A stretch of DNA of 22,174 bases from a virus, in the IMG/VR virus record IMGVR_UViG_3300008110_006323, positions 1-22,174 of that record, one strand, 5' to 3'. The first letter of the stretch is position 1; every line of letters begins with the position of its first letter. Positions 2,729 to 22,174 of this stretch are shown in pieces. Position numbers and translations under genes: made by a program. Under the pieces are notes generated by a model that was given only the letters and a program-made list of their open reading frames with translations, searched no databases and had not been told where the DNA came from.

Positions 2729-3637
2729 TTACTTACTAGTAGCTCTGTAAACCCCATCAAAACCTTTAGGTGGTCCATCTTCCATACGCTCGAGCATCAT
2801 GTCATAATAGTGCTCGAGCTTTCCATTAAAGCATGTTTTTAATTCTTTTGCAAGCTTAGACGCCCCGCCCCAATTGCCATCATAATAATAAGATAAGAAT
2901 CTAAAGTGTGTCTTTTCTTGATTATTAGCCCAATCGGCTTTATCAACAAGCGTATAGATCTTCACACCTTCTTTTTTACCTTTAACCGCAATACAATCTA
3001 ATTCAATAACGTTATAAGAACTCTTTACCTGATTAGCGGTTTCTGGTCCGAGGATGATCTGTACTCCATAGTTTTTTGATTGTCCTTCGAGTCTTGAGGC
3101 TAAATTAACATTATCCCCAAGGCAAGTATAATCAAAACGTTGTATACTACCCATGTTTCCCACAACAACATTACCAGTATTGATACCCAATCCCATACCG
3201 AACGGGGGGACTCCCTCTTTGGCAATCTCATCATTAAACTCCTTCAACTTATCTAACATCTTGACTGCAGCTTCAACAGCATGTTTAGCATGCTGTGTAT
3301 CATCAAGAGGTGCATTCCAAAATGCCATTTGTGCATCACCAATATACTTGTCAAGTGTTCCGTTTGACTCTAAGATAGACTGAGTCATTGCAGTCATGTA
3401 ACGATTCATTATCTTAGTAAGACCTTGAACGTCTGTACCGTAATGTTCAGATATAGAAGTAAACCCGCGAACGTCAGTAAACATGATAGATAACTCTCTT
3501 GTCTCACCACCAAGTTGTAGAAGTTCTGGATTCTTCTGTAACTTCTCGACCATTGCTGGTGATAGATATGTTCCAAATTGCTTCTTGATTTGTAACTTCT
3601 GTAGATACTCAGATATCATTTTCTGAGCAACAATCAT
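2729..3637 (-). CDS. Class III adenylate cyclase domain, detached from its sensor
   Basis: A 302-residue protein carrying a complete class III nucleotide cyclase domain (about residues 44-232), which makes cAMP from ATP. The metal-binding aspartates are Asp55 (MFTDVRGFTS) and Asp101 (YIGDAQMAFW). Lys97 and Thr171 form the Lys/Thr pair typical of adenylate-specific class IIIb enzymes. Asn178 and Arg182 (GDNVNLASR) are the transition-state pair. The segment before it (KKQFGTYLSPAMVEKL) is the usual linker of CHASE2 cyclases. The ATG at 3637 has no ribosome-binding site. The same frame is open upstream and encodes a membrane-helix sequence (LWDSSYILLAGSLIYF at 3638-3685). This suggests the ORF was once continuous with the CHASE2 gene at 3658-4659. 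About 70 further residues after the catalytic domain are unassigned. Confidence 0.9.
   Translation of the reverse strand: MIVAQKMISEYLQKLQIKKQFGTYLSPAMVEKLQKNPELLQLGGETRELSIMFTDVRGFTSISEHYGTDVQGLTKIMNRYMTAMTQSILESNGTLDKYIGDAQMAFWNAPLDDTQHAKHAVEAAVKMLDKLKEFNDEIAKEGVPPFGMGLGINTGNVVVGNMGSIQRFDYTCLGDNVNLASRLEGQSKNYGVQIILGPETANQVKSSYNVIELDCIAVKGKKEGVKIYTLVDKADWANNQEKTHFRFLSYYYDGNWGGASKLAKELKTCFNGKLEHYYDMMLERMEDGPPKGFDGVYRATSK
2788..2819. repeat. Perfect 9-bp inverted repeat near convergent junction
   Basis: GCTCGAGCA (2788-2796) and TGCTCGAGC (2811-2819) are perfect inverted copies with a 14-base loop, followed on the plus strand by only three Ts. It lies inside the 3' part of the cyclase gene, 60 bases beyond the end of the forward cluster, where it could act as a weak terminator. 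It may also be a chance result of the codons for two Leu-Glu pairs. Confidence 0.3.
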
Positions 3638-3657
3638 AAAGTAAATTAGTGAACCAG

Positions 3658-4659
3658 CTAATAGTATATAAGAAGAATCCCAAAGCTGGTTATAAGTTGT
3701 AAACAGATAAGTGCAAACGCTAATAGTTCTACAGTAGGTGCAATTGCAATACGTTCTGGTGTTGTTCCAGCAAATACAGAAAGTAGTGCCTGTGCTTGTA
3801 GATCTTGAACAAATTGTTCACCATGAGGTGTGGCAACTACTGTAGAAACTCCAGATGCAGACACACCTAGTATAACTAATTTACCTTCAACATCTTTTTG
3901 TTCTACATCTAAGAAATCTATATGCTTAAAACGGCTAGAAGGGTCAAGCCAAATACGAGCATTAGCATCAGTGTTAATAGTCTTAAACTGTGGAATGCGT
4001 ACAGCCTCGATACCTGCTTCTCCAGTTTTAATTTGGAACGATGGGTCATCTGTTAATGTTCTTATTATTTCTAAAGGAAGGGAAGGATATAGTTGATCGC
4101 CAATTCTCACTACCATTGGCATACGTCTGATAACACCATCTATTTCTGGTGTTGATGCAATAGTACCAACACCAGCAGCATTATCTGCAAATTGCTTTAA
4201 CGGAGCAACAGCACCAGGCCAGCTAAAAGTATAGGGGAGAGGGTCAGCACCAATGGCAGAAAATCCTCTCCTAACAGCATCAGGTTTTTGGGTTTGGTTG
4301 GTAGGCACCTGCGCAAGTACGATACCCCCAGATCCCACAGATTTTGCAAATTCATTATCGTGTCCGCTCCTATCGGGTTCTGAAAACAAAATAGGGAATA
4401 CTATTACACCAGCTTGATAATGACGAAGACGTTCAATCATATCAGCAAACTCTTTACGATCAATAGGCCACTGACCCAGCTTTTCGAGAGTCTTATCAGA
4501 TACGTCTACAATTACAATATCTTCGTTTGTTGTTATCTCTTTACTTCGTAACGTATAGTCAATAGACTTAAGTTCAAGAATTTGTACTGGATATGGATTC
4601 CAAACCTTAAGTGCTACTAATGCACCAAGTACAAGTAAAGAAATAAGAAGATTTTTCAT
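3658..4659 (-). CDS. CHASE2 extracytoplasmic sensor, truncated before the last membrane helix
   Basis: A 333-residue CHASE2 protein: an N-terminal membrane helix (residues about 3-17), a periplasmic CHASE2 domain (about 22-300) and a second hydrophobic stretch (about 307-333, ELLAFALICLQLITSFGILL) ending abruptly at a TAG. Typical landmarks are IVIVDVSDKTLEKLGQWP near residue 50 and the GKLVILGVSASGV strand near the end of the domain. CHASE2 domains normally sit in front of a cyclase or kinase through two or three further membrane helices. Here the next downstream ORF is the cyclase, in the -1 frame, so the pair reads as a split or frameshifted receptor cyclase. The start codon overlaps the stop of the short curlin gene as ATGA. 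The signal sensed is unknown. Confidence 0.88.
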   Translation of the reverse strand: MKNLLISLLVLGALVALKVWNPYPVQILELKSIDYTLRSKEITTNEDIVIVDVSDKTLEKLGQWPIDRKEFADMIERLRHYQAGVIVFPILFSEPDRSGHDNEFAKSVGSGGIVLAQVPTNQTQKPDAVRRGFSAIGADPLPYTFSWPGAVAPLKQFADNAAGVGTIASTPEIDGVIRRMPMVVRIGDQLYPSLPLEIIRTLTDDPSFQIKTGEAGIEAVRIPQFKTINTDANARIWLDPSSRFKHIDFLDVEQKDVEGKLVILGVSASGVSTVVATPHGEQFVQDLQAQALLSVFAGTTPERIAIAPTVELLAFALICLQLITSFGILLIYY

Positions 4660-4997
4660 TGTGTCTGGTTCACTATCAATGGATATGGATTACAAGATGA
4701 TATGCCGCAGTACTGTTGTATAGAATAAGAAAGGTTAGAAGAACTATTCTGTGTAACTGAAATATTATAGTTATTAAAGTTACCATATAATTCTATATTA
4801 GAACTATGATTTCCTCCACCTTGTTGATCTATAGAAACAGTACTGTTATTTAGGTCTGTTGCTAGAAAGTTTGATGTAGGATCTCCAATCTGAGTAGCAG
4901 TTATAGCATTACTATTGCCAGTCAGATTAATAATATTGCTTCCTGCATAACAAGGTGTAACTATTAGTAATAGAATTAAACTAATTATTTTTTCCAT
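4656..4997 (-). CDS. Short curlin-like exported protein
   Basis: A 113-residue protein with a signal peptide (MEKIISLILLLIVTPCYA, cleavage near residue 18) and curlin-type repeats rich in Asn, Ser and Gln, such as NSNAITATQIGD and TVSIDQQGGGNHSSNI. Such repeats form the stacked strands of curli amyloid subunits. A Cys pair (YCGISSC) lies near the C terminus. The ATG at 4997 is chosen because it begins the signal peptide; the frame is open upstream but only inside the phosphoesterase gene. It overlaps that gene by 13 bases and overlaps the CHASE2 start by 4. It has fewer repeats than the curlin at 6758-7432, so it could be a minor or nucleator subunit (CsgB-like), which is inference. Confidence 0.78.
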   Translation of the reverse strand: MEKIISLILLLIVTPCYAGSNIINLTGNSNAITATQIGDPTSNFLATDLNNSTVSIDQQGGGNHSSNIELYGNFNNYNISVTQNSSSNLSYSIQQYCGISSCNPYPLIVNQTQ

Positions 4998-5716
4998 AGG
5001 ATTACTTCCATAGTTCCGTCCATATGCTCGACAATTGCTGAGCAAGTTTCGACCCAATCCCCACAATTAAGATACGTAACTCCCATAATATCTCGTCTAT
5101 TAGGATGATGAATATGCCCACAAACAATACCATCACACCCAACAGATTTTGCATAATTGCAGAGAGTTTTTTCATAATCGCCTATAAAATTTACAGCTTT
5201 TTTGACTTTATATTTAAGCCAAGAACTAATAGACCACGGCTTAAATTTTAATTTATTTCTTATTCTATTAATAAAAACATTTATCACTATGGATACATCA
5301 TAAGCCCAGGATCCAAAATGAGATAACCATTTGGCGTGCTCTATAACAACATCAAATTGATCACCATGTATGACAAGATACTTCTTACCATCTACTCCTA
5401 TATGATAATCTTTATCTATTAATTTTATATTACCAAATTCATGATCGCCAAAACTTCTTAAAAATTCATCATGGTTACCAGGTATGTAAATTACTTCTGT
5501 ACCTTTACGAGCCATTCTCATTAACTTCTGAATAACATCGTTATGAGTCTGAGGCCAATAAAAAGATTTATATAATGCCCAACCATCAATAATATCACCT
5601 ACTAAGTATAATTTTTCACATTCAAATGTTTTAATAAATTCTAAAACTTGATTAGCTTGCGACATCTTAGTGCCAAGATGAATATCAGATATAAAAACTG
5701 TTTTATACTTGTTCAT
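4985..5716 (-). CDS. Metallophosphoesterase, LpxH-like (COG2908 type)
   Basis: A 243-residue calcineurin-type phosphoesterase, the normal length of LpxH, which hydrolyses UDP-2,3-diacylglucosamine in lipid A synthesis. The metal-binding motifs are complete: SDIHLG (Asp11, His13), GDIIDGW (Asp41), GNHDE (Asn81, His82), IHGDQFD (His117) and CGHIHHP (His201, His203). There is no signal peptide, so it acts on the cytoplasmic side. Its start overlaps the FecR-protein stop as ATGA, placing it in the middle of the curli operon. LpxH and the wider COG2908 group cannot be separated reliably by eye, so the substrate is uncertain. A role in adjusting the outer membrane during curli assembly is speculative. 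Confidence 0.85.
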   Translation of the reverse strand: MNKYKTVFISDIHLGTKMSQANQVLEFIKTFECEKLYLVGDIIDGWALYKSFYWPQTHNDVIQKLMRMARKGTEVIYIPGNHDEFLRSFGDHEFGNIKLIDKDYHIGVDGKKYLVIHGDQFDVVIEHAKWLSHFGSWAYDVSIVINVFINRIRNKLKFKPWSISSWLKYKVKKAVNFIGDYEKTLCNYAKSVGCDGIVCGHIHHPNRRDIMGVTYLNCGDWVETCSAIVEHMDGTMEVILWKK

Positions 5717-6834
5717 AGTGATTGCTTTATTGTTATAGTTGTTGAACCAGCATTGTTTACAACTTGTTTAATTGATATGTTATCTTGAGTTAATTCGTAA
5801 GTTGTTGTATGAGTATCTGCCACGTTCAGTTCAGCATAATGATTGACATCTTCTCTGTATAATACTACATTGTTCATATCATCTACAAAATATTTAAGTC
5901 CTGCACCTTTATTATATCTATTATAGTTTGGAAGTAGTGAGTTAAACTCTTCTAATTCACTTTGTAAGAATTGTGAACTTTGTGCATCTAAAACATTAAG
6001 CATAAAATCTTGATCTAAGAAATTAATATCTAATCTGTTGTTAATAAGATAATCTTTGTTCAATTCGTCATAAGCTAGAAAATCTACATTGAGGAAATCT
6101 TGATCAAGAAAGCTTTTAGTGGTTGTCATTTCATCTTGAGCTTTTTTAATTTCTCTTGGTGGTGTGACAATGAGAATATTATTAATTTGATTCTCGCTCA
6201 ATTCTAGTATCACAGGTTTAGTAGGAAGTTTACCTCTTGTATCCACTGATGTAGCTTGGAATGGTTTAGTCAACCATACTTCACCAGCATCAGTCATAAC
6301 AACTATTTGTCCTGTGATGCAATCTTTTTCAATGTCTCTGAAGCCGACAGGGCAAGAAGGTAAAAGAATAATAGTACTGCGACCAATCTCGTCAACAGTA
6401 GATGTAAAATCTGTACCTCTGACACCAATCGTAGCAGACGGCGTTTCAACCTTAACTTGTTGTGGATCATTCTTTGCAATCTGTCCTGATGTATACTTGA
6501 CTGTTCCTAAAGCAATCTTAACAGCTAGCTTACCTGCACCTTTGTTAGGATCATACACGAAGTTATCTATCACGAGTTTGCTTTGCTCGGTGATATGAAC
6601 TTGTGTTTGATCCTCAAAAGTAATACCTGCCTTCGCATTAGCAGTAGTGACAGTATCATCCATTTCTACTTTAGTACTAAGCTCGGAAGGTATTACTTCT
6701 TTGTTTCGCTTTATTTCTGTTGGACCAGTCTGTTCTGTAACAGTACCTATTGCAGCATTAGTAGTTGCTGTTAATAGACATAGTGTTGCCAGAGCCAGTA
6801 ATAGTCGCTGTAACGCTGCTATCAATTCCACCAC
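5713..6834 (-). CDS. Exported FecR-domain protein
   Basis: A 373-residue protein with a signal peptide (about residues 5-28, LLLALATLCLLTATTNAA) and a FecR domain (about 30-145) carrying the hallmark TPSATIGVRGTDF at 131-143. FecR domains are periplasmic ligand- or polymer-binding modules. Residues about 240-285 are a degenerate acidic repeat with FLDQDF occurring twice. The last 25 residues (NISIKQVVNNAGSTTITIKQ) resemble a curlin repeat pair. The start is GTG GTG at 6834, inside the preceding curlin gene, giving a 77-base overlap. No ATG in this frame would keep the signal peptide, so the overlap is likely real. Co-transcription suggests a periplasmic partner of the curlins or of the CHASE2 sensor. 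Confidence 0.88.
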   Translation of the reverse strand: MVELIAALQRLLLALATLCLLTATTNAAIGTVTEQTGPTEIKRNKEVIPSELSTKVEMDDTVTTANAKAGITFEDQTQVHITEQSKLVIDNFVYDPNKGAGKLAVKIALGTVKYTSGQIAKNDPQQVKVETPSATIGVRGTDFTSTVDEIGRSTIILLPSCPVGFRDIEKDCITGQIVVMTDAGEVWLTKPFQATSVDTRGKLPTKPVILELSENQINNILIVTPPREIKKAQDEMTTTKSFLDQDFLNVDFLAYDELNKDYLINNRLDINFLDQDFMLNVLDAQSSQFLQSELEEFNSLLPNYNRYNKGAGLKYFVDDMNNVVLYREDVNHYAELNVADTHTTTYELTQDNISIKQVVNNAGSTTITIKQSL

Positions 6835-7432
6835 CTTGATCGATGTTTACTGTATTTGTTGCACCTACTATAGTTAAATTAGCATTATGTCCACTAGTAC
6901 TAGCAGCACCAGTTTGTCTTATTTGAACAGTGTTACCGTTACCACCAGAAATGTCAACTGCTGATTGTGCACCTGATATTGCAGTTGAATCATTGTTGAT
7001 AGTTACATCATTATTATCTGAATTAATATCGATAGTAGATGTACTTGAAGATGTATCAAAATTGCGACTAATTATATTACCATTACCGTAAACTGTATCT
7101 GTCATAGTAATCATAGAACAAGTAACACACAGTAAACTTAAATCATTAAAGTTACCTGTAAATGTGTGAGTCAATGTGTTACCGTTACCGTCTACTGAGT
7201 AGGCAGCTGTATTGTTATTACCTATCTGATCTATCGTTATGGCATTAGAGTTGCCATTTATTATCGCGTGATTTGTTGCATCACCAATGCTGTTACCAAG
7301 TCCAGTTTGTGTAAAATTAATTGTTGAACTGCTACCAATCTGATCAACTATAATACTGTTACTCGCAGCATATGCATATTGAACCATAACAAAGAATGAC
7401 AAAATCATTGCCAATCTTGTTATTAGTTTCAT
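6758..7432 (-). CDS. Long curlin-like amyloid subunit
   Basis: A 224-residue exported protein with a signal peptide (MKLITRLAMILSFFVMVQYA, cleavage after AYA near residue 22). It then consists almost wholly of curlin-type repeats with the pattern N-x-I-x-I-x-Q-x-G-x-x-N: SNSIIVDQIG, NSNAITIDQIGNNNTA, GNTVQIRQTG and TNTVNIDQGG. Composition is dominated by Asn, Ser, Thr, Gly and Ile, as in CsgA. A Cys-x-x-Cys (LCVTC) in the middle is unusual for CsgA. The gene starts 3 bases after the csgG stop, with GAGG from the csgG end as its ribosome-binding site. It is the likely major fibre subunit exported through the CsgG pore. Confidence 0.88.
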   Translation of the reverse strand: MKLITRLAMILSFFVMVQYAYAASNSIIVDQIGSSSTINFTQTGLGNSIGDATNHAIINGNSNAITIDQIGNNNTAAYSVDGNGNTLTHTFTGNFNDLSLLCVTCSMITMTDTVYGNGNIISRNFDTSSSTSTIDINSDNNDVTINNDSTAISGAQSAVDISGGNGNTVQIRQTGAASTSGHNANLTIVGATNTVNIDQGGGIDSSVTATITGSGNTMSINSNY

Positions 7433-7435
7433 TCC

Positions 7436-8236
7436 TTACCTCTTTTCTGACCTATGTTTCCATAATTGTTTTCTCATACCCTCACGGACCATCTGTACTA
7501 CTGCTTCTTCTATTGCAACTCGAACTGCATATGTTGTAGGCTCATTGATATTATTACCAGCCTCAAACTCCACAGTAGTAGTATTCTGGTCTACAAACTT
7601 TAACAAATTTCCATTAGTACCTGTGCTAAGAATAGTCTTAGATACTCCCGTTGATAATAATATCTCACCAGTATTAATGGAAACTAATCTCAATACTACA
7701 GTCACTTCATCTTTACGGTATTGCTGTGATGCACCTATTCCTAATAAACGTGCACCAGCACCTCCAGATGAAACATTACTATCATAACCTACCACACCAC
7801 CTTCGATCATAATACCTGCAACGATTAAAGGTTGTAGTGGCTTTGCTTCTTTACCTTCGTATACTTCTCTCTGACTCTTAATTAGTTGTCTCTCTTTAAC
7901 TAGGTTATCTAAATTAACTCTCTCAACAACTTTAAACCAAGTCCCACCTCCAGCATCCTGGAGAGCCTTTATCATAAACACTTCTGAACCTTGCGATACA
8001 GCTGTGCTAAGATCAGCAAAGCGATCATTAGGTTTTCTTTGTCCGGTCAAATCACCAAACTTGTAAACAGCAACTGGGATAGGATCACTATCAGGTGGCT
8101 GTAAATTTACTAAATCATTCTGACGCTTTTTGTAGATAGGAGTAGGCATTTCTGTCTTTAATTCGTCCCTATAATCTCTAGGCACAGAATTGCATCCTAC
8201 TAGTAAAAGCGATGCTAAAATTATAATATATTTCAT
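7436..8236 (-). CDS. csgG: Curli secretion channel CsgG, outer-membrane lipoprotein
   Basis: A 266-residue CsgG homologue (about the same length as the E. coli protein). It has a lipoprotein signal peptide with lipobox LLVGC, lipidated Cys15. The mature protein follows the CsgG plan: PIPVAVYKFGDLTGQRKP near 51-68, FKVVERVNLDNLVKER, the membrane-inserting stretch around VVGYDSNVSSGGAGARLLGI, and VTVVLRLVSINTGEIL. CsgG forms a nonameric pore that lets unfolded curlins cross the outer membrane. The start overlaps the csgF stop as ATGA, and a curlin gene follows 3 bases later. No CsgE, CsgC or CsgD is visible in the window. Confidence 0.95.
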   Translation of the reverse strand: MKYIIILASLLLVGCNSVPRDYRDELKTEMPTPIYKKRQNDLVNLQPPDSDPIPVAVYKFGDLTGQRKPNDRFADLSTAVSQGSEVFMIKALQDAGGGTWFKVVERVNLDNLVKERQLIKSQREVYEGKEAKPLQPLIVAGIMIEGGVVGYDSNVSSGGAGARLLGIGASQQYRKDEVTVVLRLVSINTGEILLSTGVSKTILSTGTNGNLLKFVDQNTTTVEFEAGNNINEPTTYAVRVAIEEAVVQMVREGMRKQLWKHRSEKR

Positions 8237-8670
8237 ATTGCAAGACTTCCCAAAGGAACAGTTATGTCAGTTGTCAAACCACCAGCGTCAGTTATTATTA
8301 AATGTATACCATCTGCAGTTGATTCCCAGAATATATTAGAACCAGCAACATCAAAAGACCCTGTTGTTAATCCTTGATCTGAAAATAACTGCTCAGCAAT
8401 TTTCTGAGATATAGTAGCGTATATTCTACTCTCTAAGTTATTAAGAAACTTAGCTAGATTAGTATTTTTAGCATCTGCAGCAGCTTTCGCTTCTGCAGCT
8501 TTTTTATCCTCTATAATCTTCATCTTACGAGTGTACTCTTGATTTTCTATCGTAAGAACATGCGAAGACCACCCTTCACCAGAGAATGAAGGGTTATTAA
8601 ACTTGAACACCATCTCAGAAGCTGAGGCTGGAGTTATTATCAAAAAACCTGCTAAAACGTATCTAATCAT
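8233..8670 (-). CDS. csgF: Curli assembly factor CsgF
   Basis: A 145-residue CsgF-like protein. The signal peptide (MIRYVLAGFLIITPASA) is followed by the CsgF N-terminal signature MVFKFNNPSFSG. In E. coli that region inserts in the CsgG pore and makes its second constriction. An Ala/Lys-rich helical stretch (about 57-71) is followed by ISQKIAEQLF and a C-terminal beta domain. GGAGGT precedes the ATG at 8670. The frame is open ten codons further, but without a ribosome-binding site. It is the first gene of the curli operon, with a T4-type late octamer immediately upstream. CsgF anchors the nucleator at the cell surface in the known system. Confidence 0.9.
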   Translation of the reverse strand: MIRYVLAGFLIITPASASEMVFKFNNPSFSGEGWSSHVLTIENQEYTRKMKIIEDKKAAEAKAAADAKNTNLAKFLNNLESRIYATISQKIAEQLFSDQGLTTGSFDVAGSNIFWESTADGIHLIITDAGGLTTDITVPLGSLAI

Positions 8671-8675
8671 AAATA
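8668..8675 (+). promoter_or_regulatory. Putative late promoter octamer for 8740-9338
   Basis: CATAAATA on the plus strand, 64 bases upstream of the start at 8740, fits the T4-like late consensus. It overlaps the csgF start codon on the other strand, so the coding sequence constrains it; treat as tentative. Confidence 0.4.
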
Positions 8676-8684
8676 CCTCCGTGA

Positions 8685-8692
8685 TATTTATA
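8685..8692 (-). promoter_or_regulatory. Perfect T4-type late promoter octamer for the curli operon
   Basis: On the minus strand the sequence TATAAATA is followed after 4 bases by GGAGGT and then the csgF ATG. The match to the T4 late consensus is exact. The spacing would place transcription start at or next to the ribosome-binding site, giving an unusually short leader. No sigma70-type -35/-10 pair was found for this operon. Confidence 0.5.
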
Positions 8693-8739
8693 AATTTCAA
8701 TATGAAAATTTAATGAATTTAATTGATGGAGATATTATA

Positions 8740-16722: not shown

Positions 16723-17781
16723 TTAACCAATCTTTTTAAACTTCTTGAGAAGGTTTGGATCAGCTGATCCCATTGGTACTGGTTGAGGTGCTGCAGGTGC
16801 GTTACCTGCACGTTGTTTTTTAATGAGTTCTGCATCTGCAGTTGCTGATGCACCAATAGAAGCTAGTGCTGGCAATTTGCCACCAAACACATATGAGCCT
16901 GAATGTTGTAGATGCATCCATGGACACAACCATACCTTCATGCCAGCCTTGCGTACATTCTGACAGAACAGATAATCTTCAGAAAGATAGCGATCTGTTG
17001 AAGAATTAATCTTTGATTGTGCTTCTGCTAATGCATCAGATACTTCTTTACTAGGAACTGATTCACCTGAAGCAATACGCTTAAGAAGTTCTTCATATTT
17101 TTTAATAGGATTGTGACGATCAACTTCAGCTTGGAAATACATACCGATCTTACGTGAACCATCAAACGCTTCTGTACGAACATGATCTGGTTTATACATA
17201 ATTTCTGGATAAGCAGCAAGATACTTCTTAAAAGTATCCTTACGAATCATCATAAACCCAGTACCAGTTTCTAGCACTTGTGCAGGTTCATCTAAACGAA
17301 TAACTCTTGATGAAGGATCATTCTCATCAATTGCAGGGTTAAATACAAAGTCACCAACAAAATCTTCAAGTACATTAGGGTTTTGATCAGCTACACCTTT
17401 ATCAACTGCCTGTTTAATCTTTTCCCAAGTAATACACTTCTTAGGATAAGGAGCTGCAATAACATCATATTCTGACTCTGGTGTCTGTAATGCCATCATA
17501 GCAATAACATCTTGTGGATTGAATCCAATGTCTGAGTCAATAAACAGGAGGTGCTCTGAATCTGAACGAATAAATTCATCTGCACAATAATTGCGTGCAC
17601 GTGTGATCAATGATTCGTTAAACAAAAAGTATGAACGCACTTCAATGCCATACTTAACACAGAGTGCAGTAAGATCACACATAGAACGTGTATACATCCC
17701 ACCTGCCATACCACCATACATCGGTGTTGCTACAAACAACTTACGCTTTCTAAGCGCTTCTATATCAATTTTAATTTCCAT
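16723..17781 (-). CDS. GT-A type glycosyltransferase-like protein
   Basis: A 352-residue protein with the layout of a family-2-like, GT-A fold glycosyltransferase. It opens with a strand FVATPMYGGMAGGMY, and LLFIDSDIGFNPQDV carries the Asp82-x-Asp84 metal motif. A conserved LETGTGFMMIRKDTF follows in the middle, then SEDYLFCQNVRKAGMKVWLC (the usual acceptor-side E/D-D). The last 35 residues are Pro/Gly/Lys-rich and probably flexible. Similar proteins are common next to replication genes in marine T4-like phages. The acceptor may be DNA bases, virion proteins or cell-surface glycan; the sequence does not say. AAGGAAA precedes the ATG. Confidence 0.82.
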   Translation of the reverse strand: MEIKIDIEALRKRKLFVATPMYGGMAGGMYTRSMCDLTALCVKYGIEVRSYFLFNESLITRARNYCADEFIRSDSEHLLFIDSDIGFNPQDVIAMMALQTPESEYDVIAAPYPKKCITWEKIKQAVDKGVADQNPNVLEDFVGDFVFNPAIDENDPSSRVIRLDEPAQVLETGTGFMMIRKDTFKKYLAAYPEIMYKPDHVRTEAFDGSRKIGMYFQAEVDRHNPIKKYEELLKRIASGESVPSKEVSDALAEAQSKINSSTDRYLSEDYLFCQNVRKAGMKVWLCPWMHLQHSGSYVFGGKLPALASIGASATADAELIKKQRAGNAPAAPQPVPMGSADPNLLKKFKKIG

Positions 17782-17795
17782 TTTTTATTTCCTTA

Positions 17796-17984
17796 TTACC
17801 ACGAACCATCATCAATGATGAATTCTATTCTAAACATTAATAGTCTAATAATTAACTGATGCATCTTAGGGTTAAAATCATCAGGTCTCCTATAATTAAA
17901 ATCTAAACCCCAGCTTATAGGATTAAGAATAAACATAATTGATAAATTTGACCACCTAAGATAATTAAGTATACTTTTGATCAT
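17796..17984 (-). CDS. Small hypothetical phage protein
   Basis: A 62-residue protein beginning MIKSILNYLRWSNLSIMFIL and including NPISWGLDFNYRRP and LLMFRIEFIIDD near the C terminus. This layout looks familiar from small proteins of T4-like marine phages, without a known function. The ATG at 17984 lies inside the end of the upstream nucleotide-metabolism gene (20-base overlap). It is hydrophobic and could associate with membranes. Confidence 0.65.
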   Translation of the reverse strand: MIKSILNYLRWSNLSIMFILNPISWGLDFNYRRPDDFNPKMHQLIIRLLMFRIEFIIDDGSW

Positions 17985-18471
17985 GCGCTTTGCCAATACC
18001 ATAATCACCATCATACTTCTTTAGTGATTGCGACTTAAAGAGAAGGAACTGACCTACACGAGTTCCTTTCTTAATCTTTGCAGGTGCTGTTACATGGAGA
18101 GCACCTGCCATAACGCCATGATAGCCAGAATCGTATAGACCACTAGTAATAAACAAACCATTGCGATTAAGGGTTGATCTAGTAATAACCCAGCCAGCCT
18201 CGTCAGATCCAACCTGGATAATATTTTCCATAATGATCTCATATGAGCCAGGATTGAGGTACCAATAACCTTCATTATCTGGATTGAGTTCTGTAGAACC
18301 TCTATGCTGTTTAGTTTCTTTGCCATTCTCTTCACCAATAACAAATGTCTTATCAAGATCCATTCTAAAGATCTTTTCCACCCGGAGGTCTACTGCATTA
18401 GGTTGAATATCAGTTAACTCTACATTAGTAAGAGTAGATTGAGTATCTTGTGCTGCAATATGTATCATCAT
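17965..18471 (-). CDS. dUTPase/dCTP-deaminase superfamily protein
   Basis: A 168-residue member of the dUTPase-like fold, which handles dUTP or dCTP during phage nucleotide synthesis. Motif-like blocks are PNAVDLR at 24-30, RSTLNRNGL at 98-106, GLYDSGYHG at 111-119 and GTRVGQFLLF at 136-145. The catalytic Glu of dCTP deaminases, expected five residues after the Gly of the third block, is not present (Ala124), and the dUTPase glycine-rich C-terminal motif is also absent; the end reads GDYGIGKAHDQKY instead. The exact reaction therefore remains open, with dUTP hydrolysis slightly favoured. The start overlaps the amidotransferase stop as ATGA. Confidence 0.8.
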   Translation of the reverse strand: MMIHIAAQDTQSTLTNVELTDIQPNAVDLRVEKIFRMDLDKTFVIGEENGKETKQHRGSTELNPDNEGYWYLNPGSYEIIMENIIQVGSDEAGWVITRSTLNRNGLFITSGLYDSGYHGVMAGALHVTAPAKIKKGTRVGQFLLFKSQSLKKYDGDYGIGKAHDQKYT

Positions 18472-19112
18472 GAAGCTTCATCCATAAAAAAATAAGGGTT
18501 TTCAAATGTATCAAAATGTCCTACAATCTCCATCATAGGCTGTCCTGGAATAAATTGCCAGATATAATTTGGTTCTAACGGTCTCGAACCAGTAAATTTA
18601 GTAGATGATATATTACCTTGCTCATCAATAAACATAGGAGATATTTCATTACGAAAGAGTTGTAAACCTACCCCATCTTCATAGTATAGACAAGAAAACG
18701 TACCATCAATATTGTTTAAGTTTTTTGTATACTTGTATTTGTGTAGTATGAGATATGTATCCCATGTAATATATCCTAATGCTGCACCTGAACTTTCAAT
18801 AAACTTTTTAATCCAGTTATCTTTAATAATACCATTATGCCAAAGATAATGATTACCTATATTAGCTGGGTGTATAGAATTCTCTGATTTATTATCTGTT
18901 GTAGGTGCTTGCATATGAGCAATACAATATTGCCCTTCTGGTATATTTACATCGTAAATAGGAAATAATCCTAATGCTTTTTGCATATATGTAATACGTT
19001 TAATTTTAGGATCATAGTAAGAAAATGAATAAGAATGCCCACCCCTGTATGCATTAAGCATAGCAAGTTCTACTATTTTACCTTTATCGAAACTTCCAAA
19101 TATACTACACAT
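18468..19112 (-). CDS. Class II glutamine amidotransferase next to QueC
   Basis: A 214-residue Ntn-type glutaminase that releases ammonia from glutamine. The nucleophile is Cys2, exposed after Met removal (MCSIFGSF), so the start at 19112 is chosen over an adjacent ATG and a longer frame. Other family positions are LNAYRGGHS (Arg23-Gly24), CIAHMQAPTT, WHNGIIKD at 91-98 and ITWDTYLILH. No synthetase domain is attached. Archaea and some phages have Gat-QueC fusions in which such a domain turns preQ0 into the amidine G+ (archaeosine base). Here it directly overlaps the queC stop, so it could be a split version of that enzyme. Another ammonia acceptor is possible. Confidence 0.82.
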   Translation of the reverse strand: MCSIFGSFDKGKIVELAMLNAYRGGHSYSFSYYDPKIKRITYMQKALGLFPIYDVNIPEGQYCIAHMQAPTTDNKSENSIHPANIGNHYLWHNGIIKDNWIKKFIESSGAALGYITWDTYLILHKYKYTKNLNNIDGTFSCLYYEDGVGLQLFRNEISPMFIDEQGNISSTKFTGSRPLEPNYIWQFIPGQPMMEIVGHFDTFENPYFFMDEAS

Positions 19113-19879
19113 CATAGGCCTAGAGAATTGTAAGGTAAATATTTTTCCCAATCAATAGGAGGGTTATACGGAATAGGATCTTTTACCCTTGCTTTAATGA
19201 AGTTAGCAATTCGTTCAGAGCATGAAGGACATTTTCCGCAAGAGTTGCCATTTTCATCAGGGTTATAGCAAGTAAGTGTGTAATCAAATCTAACATTACC
19301 TAACTCCTGTGCAATCATAATCTCATCATACTTAGAGAGCAAACTAAAAGGTGCTTCTAGTTTTACTTTATGTGTACGATTTTGATCTGCAACTGCATTC
19401 ATACAATCAACAAACTTCTGAGTTGTATCCCAATAACCATATTCATCATGTACTTGTAACCCAGTAAACACATGAGATGCTTTGTTTGATTCTGCAAATG
19501 AAAATGCTAGTGCATTAAGAATCATATTGCGGAACGGTACATAGGTTTTAGGTTGTGGATCTCCAAGAACTTCTTTGATGGTTGGCATAGCCACGTCAGT
19601 GCCGCCGATATTTGCACTGACATCCTTTACAATATCACCAAGAATTCCAAGATCCAATACTTTATGAGCAATACCAAGATGTTGACACGTTTTAGCAGCC
19701 ATCTCAAGCTCTTTTACTTGCTTCTGTCCATAATTATATGATAAAGCAAACACTCTATTATTGCCATACTTTTTAACAAGTATGTAAGTCATAATTGTAG
19801 AATCTAGACCACCAGAAAGAACTGATACTACATTTTGATCTGTATCAGGTAACTTACTTAATGCTTCGTTCATATTCAT
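19112..19879 (-). CDS. queC: 7-cyano-7-deazaguanine synthase QueC
   Basis: A 255-residue PP-loop enzyme that converts 7-carboxy-7-deazaguanine to preQ0 with ATP and ammonia. The ATP-binding loop SGGLDST is at 22-28, followed by ALSYNYGQKQVKELEMAA, the TYVPFRNMILNALAFSFAE signature and the zinc site TCYNPDENGNSCGKCPSC (four cysteines). The full family length is present. The ATG at 19879 is used, overlapping the DUF3310 gene end by 26 bases; a second ATG lies two codons later. With QueF downstream in the pathway and a DpdA-like gene in the same operon, it most likely feeds DNA base modification rather than tRNA queuosine. Confidence 0.95.
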   Translation of the reverse strand: MNMNEALSKLPDTDQNVVSVLSGGLDSTIMTYILVKKYGNNRVFALSYNYGQKQVKELEMAAKTCQHLGIAHKVLDLGILGDIVKDVSANIGGTDVAMPTIKEVLGDPQPKTYVPFRNMILNALAFSFAESNKASHVFTGLQVHDEYGYWDTTQKFVDCMNAVADQNRTHKVKLEAPFSLLSKYDEIMIAQELGNVRFDYTLTCYNPDENGNSCGKCPSCSERIANFIKARVKDPIPYNPPIDWEKYLPYNSLGL

Positions 19880-20210
19880 TTGCAATTTCTTCCTGTAAAT
19901 ACCACATTGCTTTGTGTAAATCTTCTAGACGCTTTGCTGGATCTTTTTTACCTGCTCGTGCAACATACTTAACTACATTACCGAGTGAGAAGCTTAACTC
20001 CCACGCACGAATAACTTTAATGACTTCATATGGATTATCTTTACCACCATAATGATCTGGGTGATTTACTGCCTCTTTTTTACGAGTAGTCTCTCTATGA
20101 ACTGGTTGATGTACAACTTCTTTTTCTGTTGCAGGTTGTACAGCAGGTATAACCGGTCTTGCTGGAACACTACCACTAGTAATTATACTACCACCTGTTT
20201 TAATAGCCAT
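19854..20210 (-). CDS. DUF3310 (SaV-like) protein with N-terminal extension
   Basis: A 118-residue protein. The C-terminal half is a DUF3310 domain: NHPDHYGGKDNPYEVIKVI, LGNVVKYVARAGKKDP and LEDLHKAMWYLQEEI. The first 45 residues are a Ser/Pro/Thr-rich linker and probably disordered. DUF3310 proteins are common in phages, often annotated as nucleotide-kinase-like, with no established function. A second copy lies at 21140-21376 and the two bracket queF. The ATG is 2 bases after the queF stop. Confidence 0.88.
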   Translation of the reverse strand: MAIKTGGSIITSGSVPARPVIPAVQPATEKEVVHQPVHRETTRKKEAVNHPDHYGGKDNPYEVIKVIRAWELSFSLGNVVKYVARAGKKDPAKRLEDLHKAMWYLQEEIANEYERSIK

Positions 20211-20211
20211 A

Positions 20212-21147
20212 TTATTGCCTCAATGTTTTAGTGTTTAACTTACCTGCATCAACCAAGTCTCTTGCATACTTGAAAATTAAATGATCATTAGTTGCGCGTA
20301 CTGGATTAATATCAATACCACCACGGCGTGTATAAAGACATGATACAAGAAGTTGATCTGGTTCTAATAAATCATAAAGTCTCTTATAGACACATTCACA
20401 TATTTCTTCATGAAAGTGATTTTCTCTACGCATAGAAACAATATACTGTAGAAGTGATTCTGGTGTTACTGTCTTATTACCTTTGATTGAGATGTAAATA
20501 TCACCCCAGTCAGGTTGGTTAGTAACACGACAGTTTGAACGAAGAACTGCTGAACGCCAGTTATAATGTGCGTCAGGGTTAGTATCTTTTACTACTAAGA
20601 TAGCAGGATCTTCGTTATATTGATTAAACTCAATCTTCTCTACATTAACACTATGTTCAAGAGATATAAATGAGAAATTACCAATAGGTGATGAACAGGA
20701 TGTGCTTTCATCACAAAATGCTACTTGAATTGCATCTTGTTCAACACCTAATGTTTTAGAAAGGTCTCTGTAGATAATATCTACTACTTCATCAATAACA
20801 TCAGAAACTGTATCACCTAAACGTGCCATATTAAATGAGTTCATATAAAGCTTAAGTGATTTTGATTCTACAATGTTAGGTGAATCAGACGGATACACAC
20901 AACGAATAACCCCGCAAACAGGAAAACCGTTTGTAGTAAGGGTGGAAAACTCATAACAATTCCAAGTATCGTACCCAACAAAAGGAAGATTATCATCATC
21001 GATGTTATAGACGGTACGATTAAGATGGCGAGGGATACCGACGAGTAAAGTAGGATCAATGTTATCAGGAGTAACATAAGGTTTAACAACTGAACCATCA
21101 CCAGCTTTTCCTAGGTGCACAGACGCAATATCTTCAATATTAACCAT
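20212..21147 (-). CDS. queF: NADPH-dependent preQ0 reductase QueF, bimodular type
   Basis: A 311-residue long-form QueF that reduces the nitrile of preQ0 to the aminomethyl group of preQ1. The N-terminal half has YDTWNCYEFSTLTTNGFPVC and the NADPH-site motif ESKSLKLYMNSFN at 94-106. The C-terminal half has the nucleophile Cys206 and acid Asp213 (SNCRVTNQPDWGD), the FHEE substrate motif near 245 and TRRGGIDINPVR. The E. coli enzyme has the same bimodular order. GAGG lies 8 bases before the ATG at 21147. Phages with queF and a transglycosylase are known to carry preQ1-type bases in DNA, and that is the likely role here. Confidence 0.95.
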   Translation of the reverse strand: MVNIEDIASVHLGKAGDGSVVKPYVTPDNIDPTLLVGIPRHLNRTVYNIDDDNLPFVGYDTWNCYEFSTLTTNGFPVCGVIRCVYPSDSPNIVESKSLKLYMNSFNMARLGDTVSDVIDEVVDIIYRDLSKTLGVEQDAIQVAFCDESTSCSSPIGNFSFISLEHSVNVEKIEFNQYNEDPAILVVKDTNPDAHYNWRSAVLRSNCRVTNQPDWGDIYISIKGNKTVTPESLLQYIVSMRRENHFHEEICECVYKRLYDLLEPDQLLVSCLYTRRGGIDINPVRATNDHLIFKYARDLVDAGKLNTKTLRQ

Positions 21148-21376
21148 TTTTCTTTTCCTCATATGCAATTGCAAATTCTAAAAACTTAGCAGCTTTCTTA
21201 AGATCTTGAAGTACAGGATCTTTATTACCTGCTCTCCAAACATACTTAAAAGCTTGAAATCGATTATAATCTGTAAACGTATCGTTAGTAGAAGTCTTAC
21301 ATAATTCTTCAATCACATCAATACATTCATACTTACTATCACCTTTATAGTGACTAGGTCTAATAGCATCAGACAT
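21140..21376 (-). CDS. Short DUF3310 (SaV-like) protein
   Basis: A 78-residue DUF3310 protein: IRPSHYKGDSKYECIDVIEE at the N terminus, then FQAFKYVWRAGNKDPVLQDL and KKAAKFLEFAIAYEE. The His-Tyr and Y-hydrophobic-x-R-A-G-x-K-D positions match the copy at 19854-20210, but the long N-terminal extension is missing. It overlaps both neighbours by 8 bases, so all are co-translated. The function is unknown. Confidence 0.87.
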   Translation of the reverse strand: MSDAIRPSHYKGDSKYECIDVIEELCKTSTNDTFTDYNRFQAFKYVWRAGNKDPVLQDLKKAAKFLEFAIAYEEKKNG

Positions 21377-21902
21377 TAATATGCTCCGGTAAGAATTCTA
21401 ACCATGATTGTAGTGAACAATCCTTTAGTGTATTATAAAGCTCTTCTTTAGTAATGCAAGTGTTATCTCTAAGAACACTATGAACTACTTCACCTTCATC
21501 TACCCCTTCAGTTACTTTATGAATAACCGATCCAATAGTATGATACTTGGCATGACCTTCCCAAGTTTTCTCTTGAGGGTCTTTACCTTTAAGTTCTGGA
21601 TGTAGATGAATAGCTGCAGGATGTCCGTTAAAGATATCATGCATTGTTACAATATCTTTAGGAATAATTTTAAGATAACCATGAAGTGTTATAAAACATC
21701 TTCGTTTAGTAAAACGCAATGAGTTATGAATAGCCTCAAAGTTCATAATAGTGACCTTATCTACCGGTATATTATGTGACCATTGATCTTCATTTCTATT
21801 ATTAGTAATAATATCAGTAGGCCAGACATCGAAGTGATCACAAATCTTCTTGAGTTCACTTCCTGTCTGACTAAAGAGTGCTATCCAAGGTCTCAATTGC
21901 AA
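21369..21902 (-). CDS. Formyltransferase (PurN/Fmt fold) in the deazaguanine cluster
   Basis: A 177-residue formyl_trans_N domain protein, which moves a formyl group from 10-formyltetrahydrofolate to an amine. N-terminal IALFSQTGSELKKI aligns with the PurN phosphate loop. The catalytic triad is present: Asn92 and His94 in FNGHPAAIHLHPELKGKDPQ, and Asp135 in VTEGVDEGEVV. It is shorter than PurN (about 210) and has no Fmt C-terminal domain. The start appears to be TTG at 21902, overlapping the DpdA-like gene. Its place between a DpdA-like gene and queF suggests that it formylates the aminomethyl group of preQ1, giving 7-(formylamino)methyl-7-deazaguanine. Purine synthesis is the alternative. 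Confidence 0.85.
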   Translation of the reverse strand: MQLRPWIALFSQTGSELKKICDHFDVWPTDIITNNRNEDQWSHNIPVDKVTIMNFEAIHNSLRFTKRRCFITLHGYLKIIPKDIVTMHDIFNGHPAAIHLHPELKGKDPQEKTWEGHAKYHTIGSVIHKVTEGVDEGEVVHSVLRDNTCITKEELYNTLKDCSLQSWLEFLPEHINV

Positions 21903-22174
21903 AACTTTCTAAACTGTTCAATATTACCTTTAATAAACTCAAGTTGCATATCTGTTACTTCTTCAGACATGTACTCAATAAGCTTAGTAGAGATCTTATC
22001 ATCAAGACCAGTAGGACGATACTGCACACCATTTAATCCGTGAACAATAGGATTAGAAGTATCCACAGAATCAATCCACTTGTAATCTTTATAAGCAATA
22101 AACTCTTGAGGAAGACCGCAGCCGAGAAGGTGATGAGGCTTGTTAGTATCAATAATACCATCATTGAGAAGATC
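21893..22174 (-). CDS. DpdA/TGT-like transglycosylase, 3' end only
   Basis: The last 93 codons of a gene that enters from the right edge, ending TGA at 21893-21895. The segment KPHHLLGCGLPQEFIAYKDY and the following WIDSVDTSNPIVHG resemble the C-terminal part of phage DpdA proteins, a branch of the tRNA-guanine transglycosylase family that swaps guanine for a 7-deazaguanine in DNA. The catalytic aspartates may lie outside the window, except possibly the Asp of SVDTS. It overlaps the formyltransferase start by 10 bases. Assignment is from remembered family motifs and from the adjacent queC and queF. Confidence 0.75.
   Translation of the reverse strand, partial: DLLNDGIIDTNKPHHLLGCGLPQEFIAYKDYKWIDSVDTSNPIVHGLNGVQYRPTGLDDKISTKLIEYMSEEVTDMQLEFIKGNIEQFRKFCN

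Follow-up and report, generated by a model that had tools for sequence, protein, structure and literature searches.

What does the formyltransferase (FT) encoded at the right end of the viral DNA record IMGVR_UViG_3300008110_006323 act on? Its gene lies among genes for making 7-deazaguanine bases and inserting them into DNA, and its closest curated family is PurN, an enzyme of purine synthesis. The window that we analyzed is the complete IMG/VR record (22,174 bases; GC content, 35.7%). By its gene content the source is a T4-like phage, because the cluster is closely followed downstream by genes for a sliding clamp (gp45) and a clamp loader (gp44); the nearest isolate match to gp44 is from Stenotrophomonas phage DLP6 (64% identity), and the next is from Methylophilales phage Melnitz. 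The initial annotation had placed a dpdA-like gene, FT, queF, and queC in one overlapping operon. All four are indeed on the minus strand and tightly packed, with neighboring genes overlapping by 4 to 20 bases or else separated by 1 base. However, FT and queF are not adjacent, and only a 93-residue C-terminal fragment of the DpdA-like protein is encoded in the window. From the right edge, the order is the end of dpdA, FT, a DUF3310 gene, queF, a second DUF3310 gene, queC, gat, and a dCTP deaminase-like gene. Judging from these genes and their relatives, the operon is very probably the distal half of a pathway by which the phage replaces guanine in its own DNA with a formylated 7-deazaguanine.

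In the proposed pathway, FolE, QueD, and QueE, which are encoded off the contig and are present in relatives, would convert GTP to 7-carboxy-7-deazaguanine. QueC, using ammonia that Gat would release from glutamine, would convert this product to 7-cyano-7-deazaguanine (preQ0), which QueF would reduce with NADPH to 7-aminomethyl-7-deazaguanine (preQ1). The DpdA3-type transglycosylase would exchange guanine in DNA for the deazaguanine. FT, with 10-formyl-tetrahydrofolate as the presumed donor, would formylate the nitrogen of the preQ1 aminomethyl group, and the product would be 7-(formylamino)methyl-7-deazaguanine (fdPreQ1 in DNA). Formylation would abolish the charge of the amine and may in this way hide the DNA from host nucleases.

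We found that FT has both the sequence and the fold of a formyltransferase. It matches PF00551 with 36.4 bits (gathering cutoff, 26.1; E = 5.6e-9), and its AlphaFold2 model (pLDDT 95.3) has the fold of glycinamide ribonucleotide (GAR) transformylase, with a Z score of 19.5 and a root mean square deviation (rmsd) of 2.4 over 169 of 177 residues. All three catalytic residues had been claimed to be present, and the Asn-His-Asp triad is intact: N92, H94, and D135 (numbered from 21902) align with N106, H108, and D144 of PurN and are invariant in 116/116 distinct sequences. His108 and Asp144 are catalytic in PurN (PMC3261824). The overlap of FT with dpdA was also confirmed. The best start for FT, a TTG at 21896, gives a 4-base overlap (TTGA) with the dpdA stop codon, and many relatives have a 4-base or similarly short overlap with dpdA, whether they start with ATG, GTG, or TTG.

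Further evidence on the role of FT comes from the genes that accompany it. We assembled two sets of IMG/VR contigs, one by DpdA and one by FT, each consisting of the best 80 of more than 550 matches. Among contigs of the DpdA-based set with room for the gene, FT was present in 76/77 and QueF in 63/63. In the FT-based set, QueF was present in 60/60, and DpdA3 was adjacent to FT in 65/67; of the remaining two, one carries DpdA3 at a different place in its record. The gene order was found again in more than 100 viral contigs, and therefore a chance arrangement is of no concern. More telling than these counts are the contrasts, by which the association between FT and QueF runs in one direction. 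QueF is present and FT was not found in contig L080, in Vibrio phage KVP40, and in Pseudomonas phage pf16, while Campylobacter phages carry DpdA3 (and, as seen in CP21, QueC) with neither QueF nor FT found. Thus, FT goes with QueF but QueF does not always go with FT, which fits an FT that takes the product of QueF and formylates its amine. L080 encodes DpdA3, a kinase-like protein, and QueF (positions 5293 to 8329) with no FT anywhere in 27 kb; we therefore predict it to be a natural variant that carries dPreQ1.

The initial annotation had guessed that folE, queD, and queE lie beyond the right edge of the window and had proposed extension to the right as a check. Related IMG/VR contigs supplied these genes together with the full dpdA. 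The viral contig L004, 99 to 100% identical to the window across the cluster, adds a full dpdA and a partial folE. Three further contigs, L005, L009, and L011, carry queE-queD-folE-dpdA-FT and continue to queF and queC; their FT proteins are 92, 79, and 53% identical to that of the window, respectively. When genome contigs were scanned for FT, only three matches turned up among about 85,000 genomes; one of the three, on contig L097, comes with the whole cluster. All the testable parts of the initial interpretation came out in its favor, and FT is tied to DpdA3 and QueF.

The QueF identity assigned by the initial annotation is supported by its nitrile reductase NADPH motif and catalytic residues. 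The motif, ESKSLKLY in the window, is kept in 148/148 homologues; Cys215, Asp222, and FHE form the active site in the window, and the Cys and Asp are found in most homologues as well. Against the TIGR03138 equivalog the protein scores 240.1, under the cutoff of 293.45. Because the NADPH motif and the Cys/Asp active site are kept, this QueF looks like a reductase making preQ1 rather than QueF-L, the archaeosine synthase, which uses ammonia chemistry (PMC5485725). Hutinet et al. 2019 reported that sequence alone poorly separates QueF from QueF-L and that the QueF-type phages measured had dPreQ1 (PMC6884629). In the DNA of Vibrio phage 6E351A, dPreQ1 was detected by mass spectrometry at 15% of deoxyguanosine (dG) (PMC12028318); the record of this phage has homologous QueF, QueC, and standalone Gat and no FT match.

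The dpdA fragment, which contains the motifs LLGCGLPQEF and DTSNP, is 100% identical to the end of the full-length DpdA of L004. It is also 57% identical to a protein of Flavobacterium phage vB_FspM_immuto_2-6A (immuto) annotated as a DNA guanine transglycosylase and is related to Campylobacter phage proteins. The assignment of a DpdA-type enzyme was borne out by the AlphaFold2 model of the L004 protein (mean pLDDT 93.9), which matches tRNA-guanine transglycosylases (TGTs) with Z scores of 17 to 18 and an rmsd of about 3.0 over 225 to 231 of 263 residues (Z 17.7 and rmsd 3.0 at 231 residues). Among the matches listed, 50/50 are bacterial or archaeal TGTs. Candidates for the catalytic Asp pair of TGT are D52 and D208, which are invariant and stand at matching motif positions, but the profile alignment to Escherichia coli TGT is weak; Asp208 of the full-length protein, in the DTSNP motif, is by its position the putative nucleophile. 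The homologues in Campylobacter and Flavobacterium phages suggest assignment to DpdA3, a subfamily reportedly defined by Cui et al. 2023.

Several points weigh against the proposed pathway. DpdA3 is barely recognizable as a TGT by sequence: Pfam gives no match, and those from NCBIfam and hhalign are weak. The link between the two was made only by the fold model. The two contig sets overlap and hold near-copies, so that the counts show a rule and not the number of independent events. A Clostridiales metagenome-assembled genome (MAG) has DpdA3 and FT on one contig (L096:786-2196), and QueF was not found in that MAG. This exception may reflect an incomplete record, preQ1 supplied by the host, a different FT substrate, or a break in the rule. 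That FT acts on preQ1 we infer from context. Finally, a distant relative of FT in a Microcoleus MAG (L095:5995-6537) lies in an unrelated-looking cluster without DpdA3, among apparent genes for a radical SAM protein, a kinase, a DegT-type aminotransferase, and a phosphoribosyltransferase; this relative perhaps acts on another aminated nucleoside or a sugar.

We considered whether FT formylates free preQ1 before insertion, with DpdA3 then accepting formyl-preQ1. This variant of the pathway is plausible, and we lean away from it. In its model, FT is a small, single-domain, PurN-like protein with no evident DNA-binding addition, and the overlap of dpdA and FT would also suit such an order of events. 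However, the related DpdA3 is found in Campylobacter phages where there is no preQ1 step at all, and therefore the family is not bound to a single base. It is less probable, and on the whole unlikely, that FT formylates some other substrate, such as a sugar nucleotide, tRNA, or protein, for DNA hypermodification or host takeover. The fold matches of FT do include Fmt, ArnA, and sugar N-formyltransferases, and the Microcoleus relative adjoins an apparent aminotransferase gene, but FT is tightly linked to QueF and DpdA3, and this linkage, along with the one-way pattern of presence and absence, speaks for preQ1.

We then compared FT with PurN. Against the PurN equivalog TIGR00639 it scores 29.4 bits, where the cutoff is 150.1. 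G9, N13, and E173 of PurN (E. coli numbers), present in 8/8 PurN proteins compared, are replaced in the FT family by Q (113/116), E (116/116), and S (112/116). N13 and E173 of PurN contact GAR. The family-specific motifs NGHP and ELKGKDPQ, together with SQTGSE, form a clean signature telling FT from PurN, the name that FT bears in database records. The initial annotation had named firm grouping with PurN as grounds for refuting its reading; in a 40-row tree, the FT family is instead a separate clade on one side of a branch with 100/100 support, and PurN of bacteria and cyanophages, Fmt, and ArnA are on the other. This branch is long, and therefore the tree says "not PurN" and is silent on the origin of the family. 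By the tree, the TIGR00639 cutoff, and the replaced residues, we rejected the identification of FT as PurN. Although the closest folds are also those of PurN, and marine T4-like cyanophages carry purN, it is very unlikely that FT serves as an extra PurN to raise purine synthesis, in the manner of cyanophages, and sits with DpdA3 and QueF by happenstance.

The preferred pathway also has to account for Gat, a gene not named in the initial annotation. QueC hallmark motifs are SGGxDS and C(x)8CxxCxxC (PMC13329287). The window QueC, which scores 170.3 bits against TIGR00364 (cutoff, 150.3), has SGGLDS and a four-cysteine zinc motif whose first spacer is one residue longer. In Gat, the N-terminal Cys after Met and the RG, HxQAPT, WHNG, and WDT motifs are invariant in 82/82 sequences; the window protein has no Pfam match, and its KVP40 homologue is annotated with PF00310. 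Homologues of Gat adjoin QueC in KVP40-like phages and pf16. In a 75-row QueC tree, Gat-partnered and Gat-less proteins form separate clades with one exception (two changes, versus 13 in shuffles); the exception, L148, has a Gat-type QueC and unrelated downstream genes. The zinc motif is present in 55/55 Gat-partnered QueC proteins and absent from 13/14 Gat-less ones. The two types can be exchanged within an otherwise equal cluster: L005 has an FT 92% identical to that of the window and a DpdA 96% identical to that of L004, yet its Gat-less QueC is only 30% identical to the window's. Because of this exchange, we regard Gat as a candidate supplier of ammonia to QueC and not as an archaeosine maker. 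It is fairly likely that zinc-motif QueC and standalone Gat form a two-subunit, glutamine-dependent preQ0 synthase, swapped as a unit for a zinc-less, Gat-less QueC, and that Gat does not determine the final base. On the simplest reading, preQ0 is the product of either type of QueC, and Gat supplies the ammonia for one of them. We ruled out Gat as a requirement of the pathway, since Gat-less contigs keep everything else. An archaeosine (dG+) end product with a minor role for FT, after the example of Enterobacteria phage 9g, whose fused Gat-QueC gives dG+ with DpdA (PMC6884629), is highly improbable even though the window pairs both domains as separate proteins: here QueF, which accompanies FT in all 60 of the contigs counted above, would drain preQ0; contigs with Gat-less QueC retain the same DpdA3, FT, and QueF; and phage 6E351A, with QueF, QueC, and standalone Gat, carries dPreQ1.

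Formylated deazaguanine has reportedly been found in phage DNA before: Cui et al. 2023 are said to have described fdPreQ1 in phage DNA and DpdN as a predicted dPreQ1 formyltransferase, the activity being predicted rather than assayed. The DpdA3 subfamily is likewise said to allow full replacement of G. The gene content of the window matches that system as reported, and by context FT fits DpdN, being a formyltransferase whose gene lies with dpdA and queF in phage deazaguanine clusters. Our literature search, which did not extend to Cui et al. 2023, returned nothing relevant on DpdN, fdPreQ1, or formylamino. The cluster would thus be a further example of a chemistry reportedly described in 2023. 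The present analysis adds to this by separating FT from PurN, by showing that FT and QueF co-occur asymmetrically, by locating in relatives the half of the pathway that the window lacks, and by bringing out the swap of the QueC/Gat module. FT and DpdA each have more than 550 relatives in IMG/VR, which makes the formyl-deazaguanine cluster a common one in phage contigs.

Among cultured phages, immuto (NC_055915) is like the window in having queD, queE, folE, dpdA (57% identity), FT (39%), and queF (46%) in one run. Unlike the window, it has a thymidylate kinase-like gene instead of DUF3310, its QueC is about 11 kb upstream, no Gat match was found, and its FT is annotated as phosphoribosylglycinamide formyltransferase. 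Both formylation and the part played by Gat as partner of QueC are directly testable in immuto and in E. coli. The Campylobacter phages CP21 and CP220 have the same DpdA family (about 41% identity), with a thymidylate kinase-like neighbor in CP21, but no QueF and no FT; Campylobacter DpdA3 phages are reported to be highly modified with dADG (PMC6884629). KVP40-like Vibrio phages and pf16 share the QueF-QueC-Gat run, in the order folE, unassigned open reading frame (ORF), queF, queC, and gat, and phage 6E351A, which carries dPreQ1, is a relative; KVP40 and pf16 have no match to DpdA3 or FT. In phage 9g, Gat is paired with QueC as in the window (PMC6884629), but there the two are fused, whereas the window has separate proteins plus QueF.

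Table 1. Genes of the candidate deazaguanine cluster, with positions in the window
Feature	Position	Strand	Basis and remarks
dpdA, last 93 codons, truncated at contig end; DpdA3-type DNA guanine transglycosylase	21893..22174	-	Homology; fold of full-length relative
FT, formyltransferase, DpdN-like, 175 aa	21369..21896	-	PF00551; TTG start; ORF listed from TTG 21902, 177 aa
DUF3310 protein, 78 aa, between FT and queF	21140..21376	-	PF11753, E 4.3e-13
queF, two-module 7-cyano-7-deazaguanine reductase	20212..21147	-	PF14819, 4.5e-29; PF14489, 1.3e-20; ATG 21147, ORF open from 21174
Second DUF3310 protein, 118 aa, between queF and queC	19854..20210	-	PF11753, E 6.3e-15
queC, 7-cyano-7-deazaguanine synthase	19112..19873	-	PF06508, 2.3e-52; ATG 19873 or 19879
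gat, standalone class II (Ntn-type) glutamine amidotransferase	18468..19115	-	phrog_12378, 3.8e-45; 4-base overlap with queC
dCTP deaminase-like/dUTPase-like gene, last in overlapping run	17965..18471	-	PF22769, 8.3e-14

The two DUF3310 genes, like gat, had gone unnamed in the initial annotation. DUF3310 occupies the slot between FT and QueF in the window's own group; in most relatives, the slot holds a thymidylate kinase-like AAA_28 P-loop gene (examples are L011:4960-5502, L012:3144-3677, L002:12525-13049, and L003:6276-6818). In Campylobacter phage CP21, which is without FT, a gene annotated as thymidylate kinase directly follows DpdA3. The thymidylate kinase-like gene may take part in the modification. 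The dCTP deaminase-like gene closes the same run in relatives and follows Gat/QueC in many of those with room. Between the cluster and gp45, a glycosyltransferase-like protein (phrog_1574) is encoded at 16723-17781; its position is conserved in relatives, and the protein is also found in Sinorhizobium, Caulobacter, and Stenotrophomonas phages.

Elsewhere in the window, on the minus strand at 2729-8700, we observed a curli block. It encodes CsgF (8233-8700), CsgG (7436-8236), and a curlin-repeat-like secreted protein (6758-7432) that scores 20.5 bits against the Pfam curlin repeat, under the cutoff of 20.7. FecR, a metallophosphoesterase, a second N/Q-rich repeat protein (4656-5066), CHASE2, and a nucleotide cyclase are also encoded there. 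The curli blocks of phages described in the literature reportedly do not include the fiber subunits CsgA and CsgB (PMC7029224, PMC9004378). Unlike those, the block in the window includes a candidate fiber subunit.

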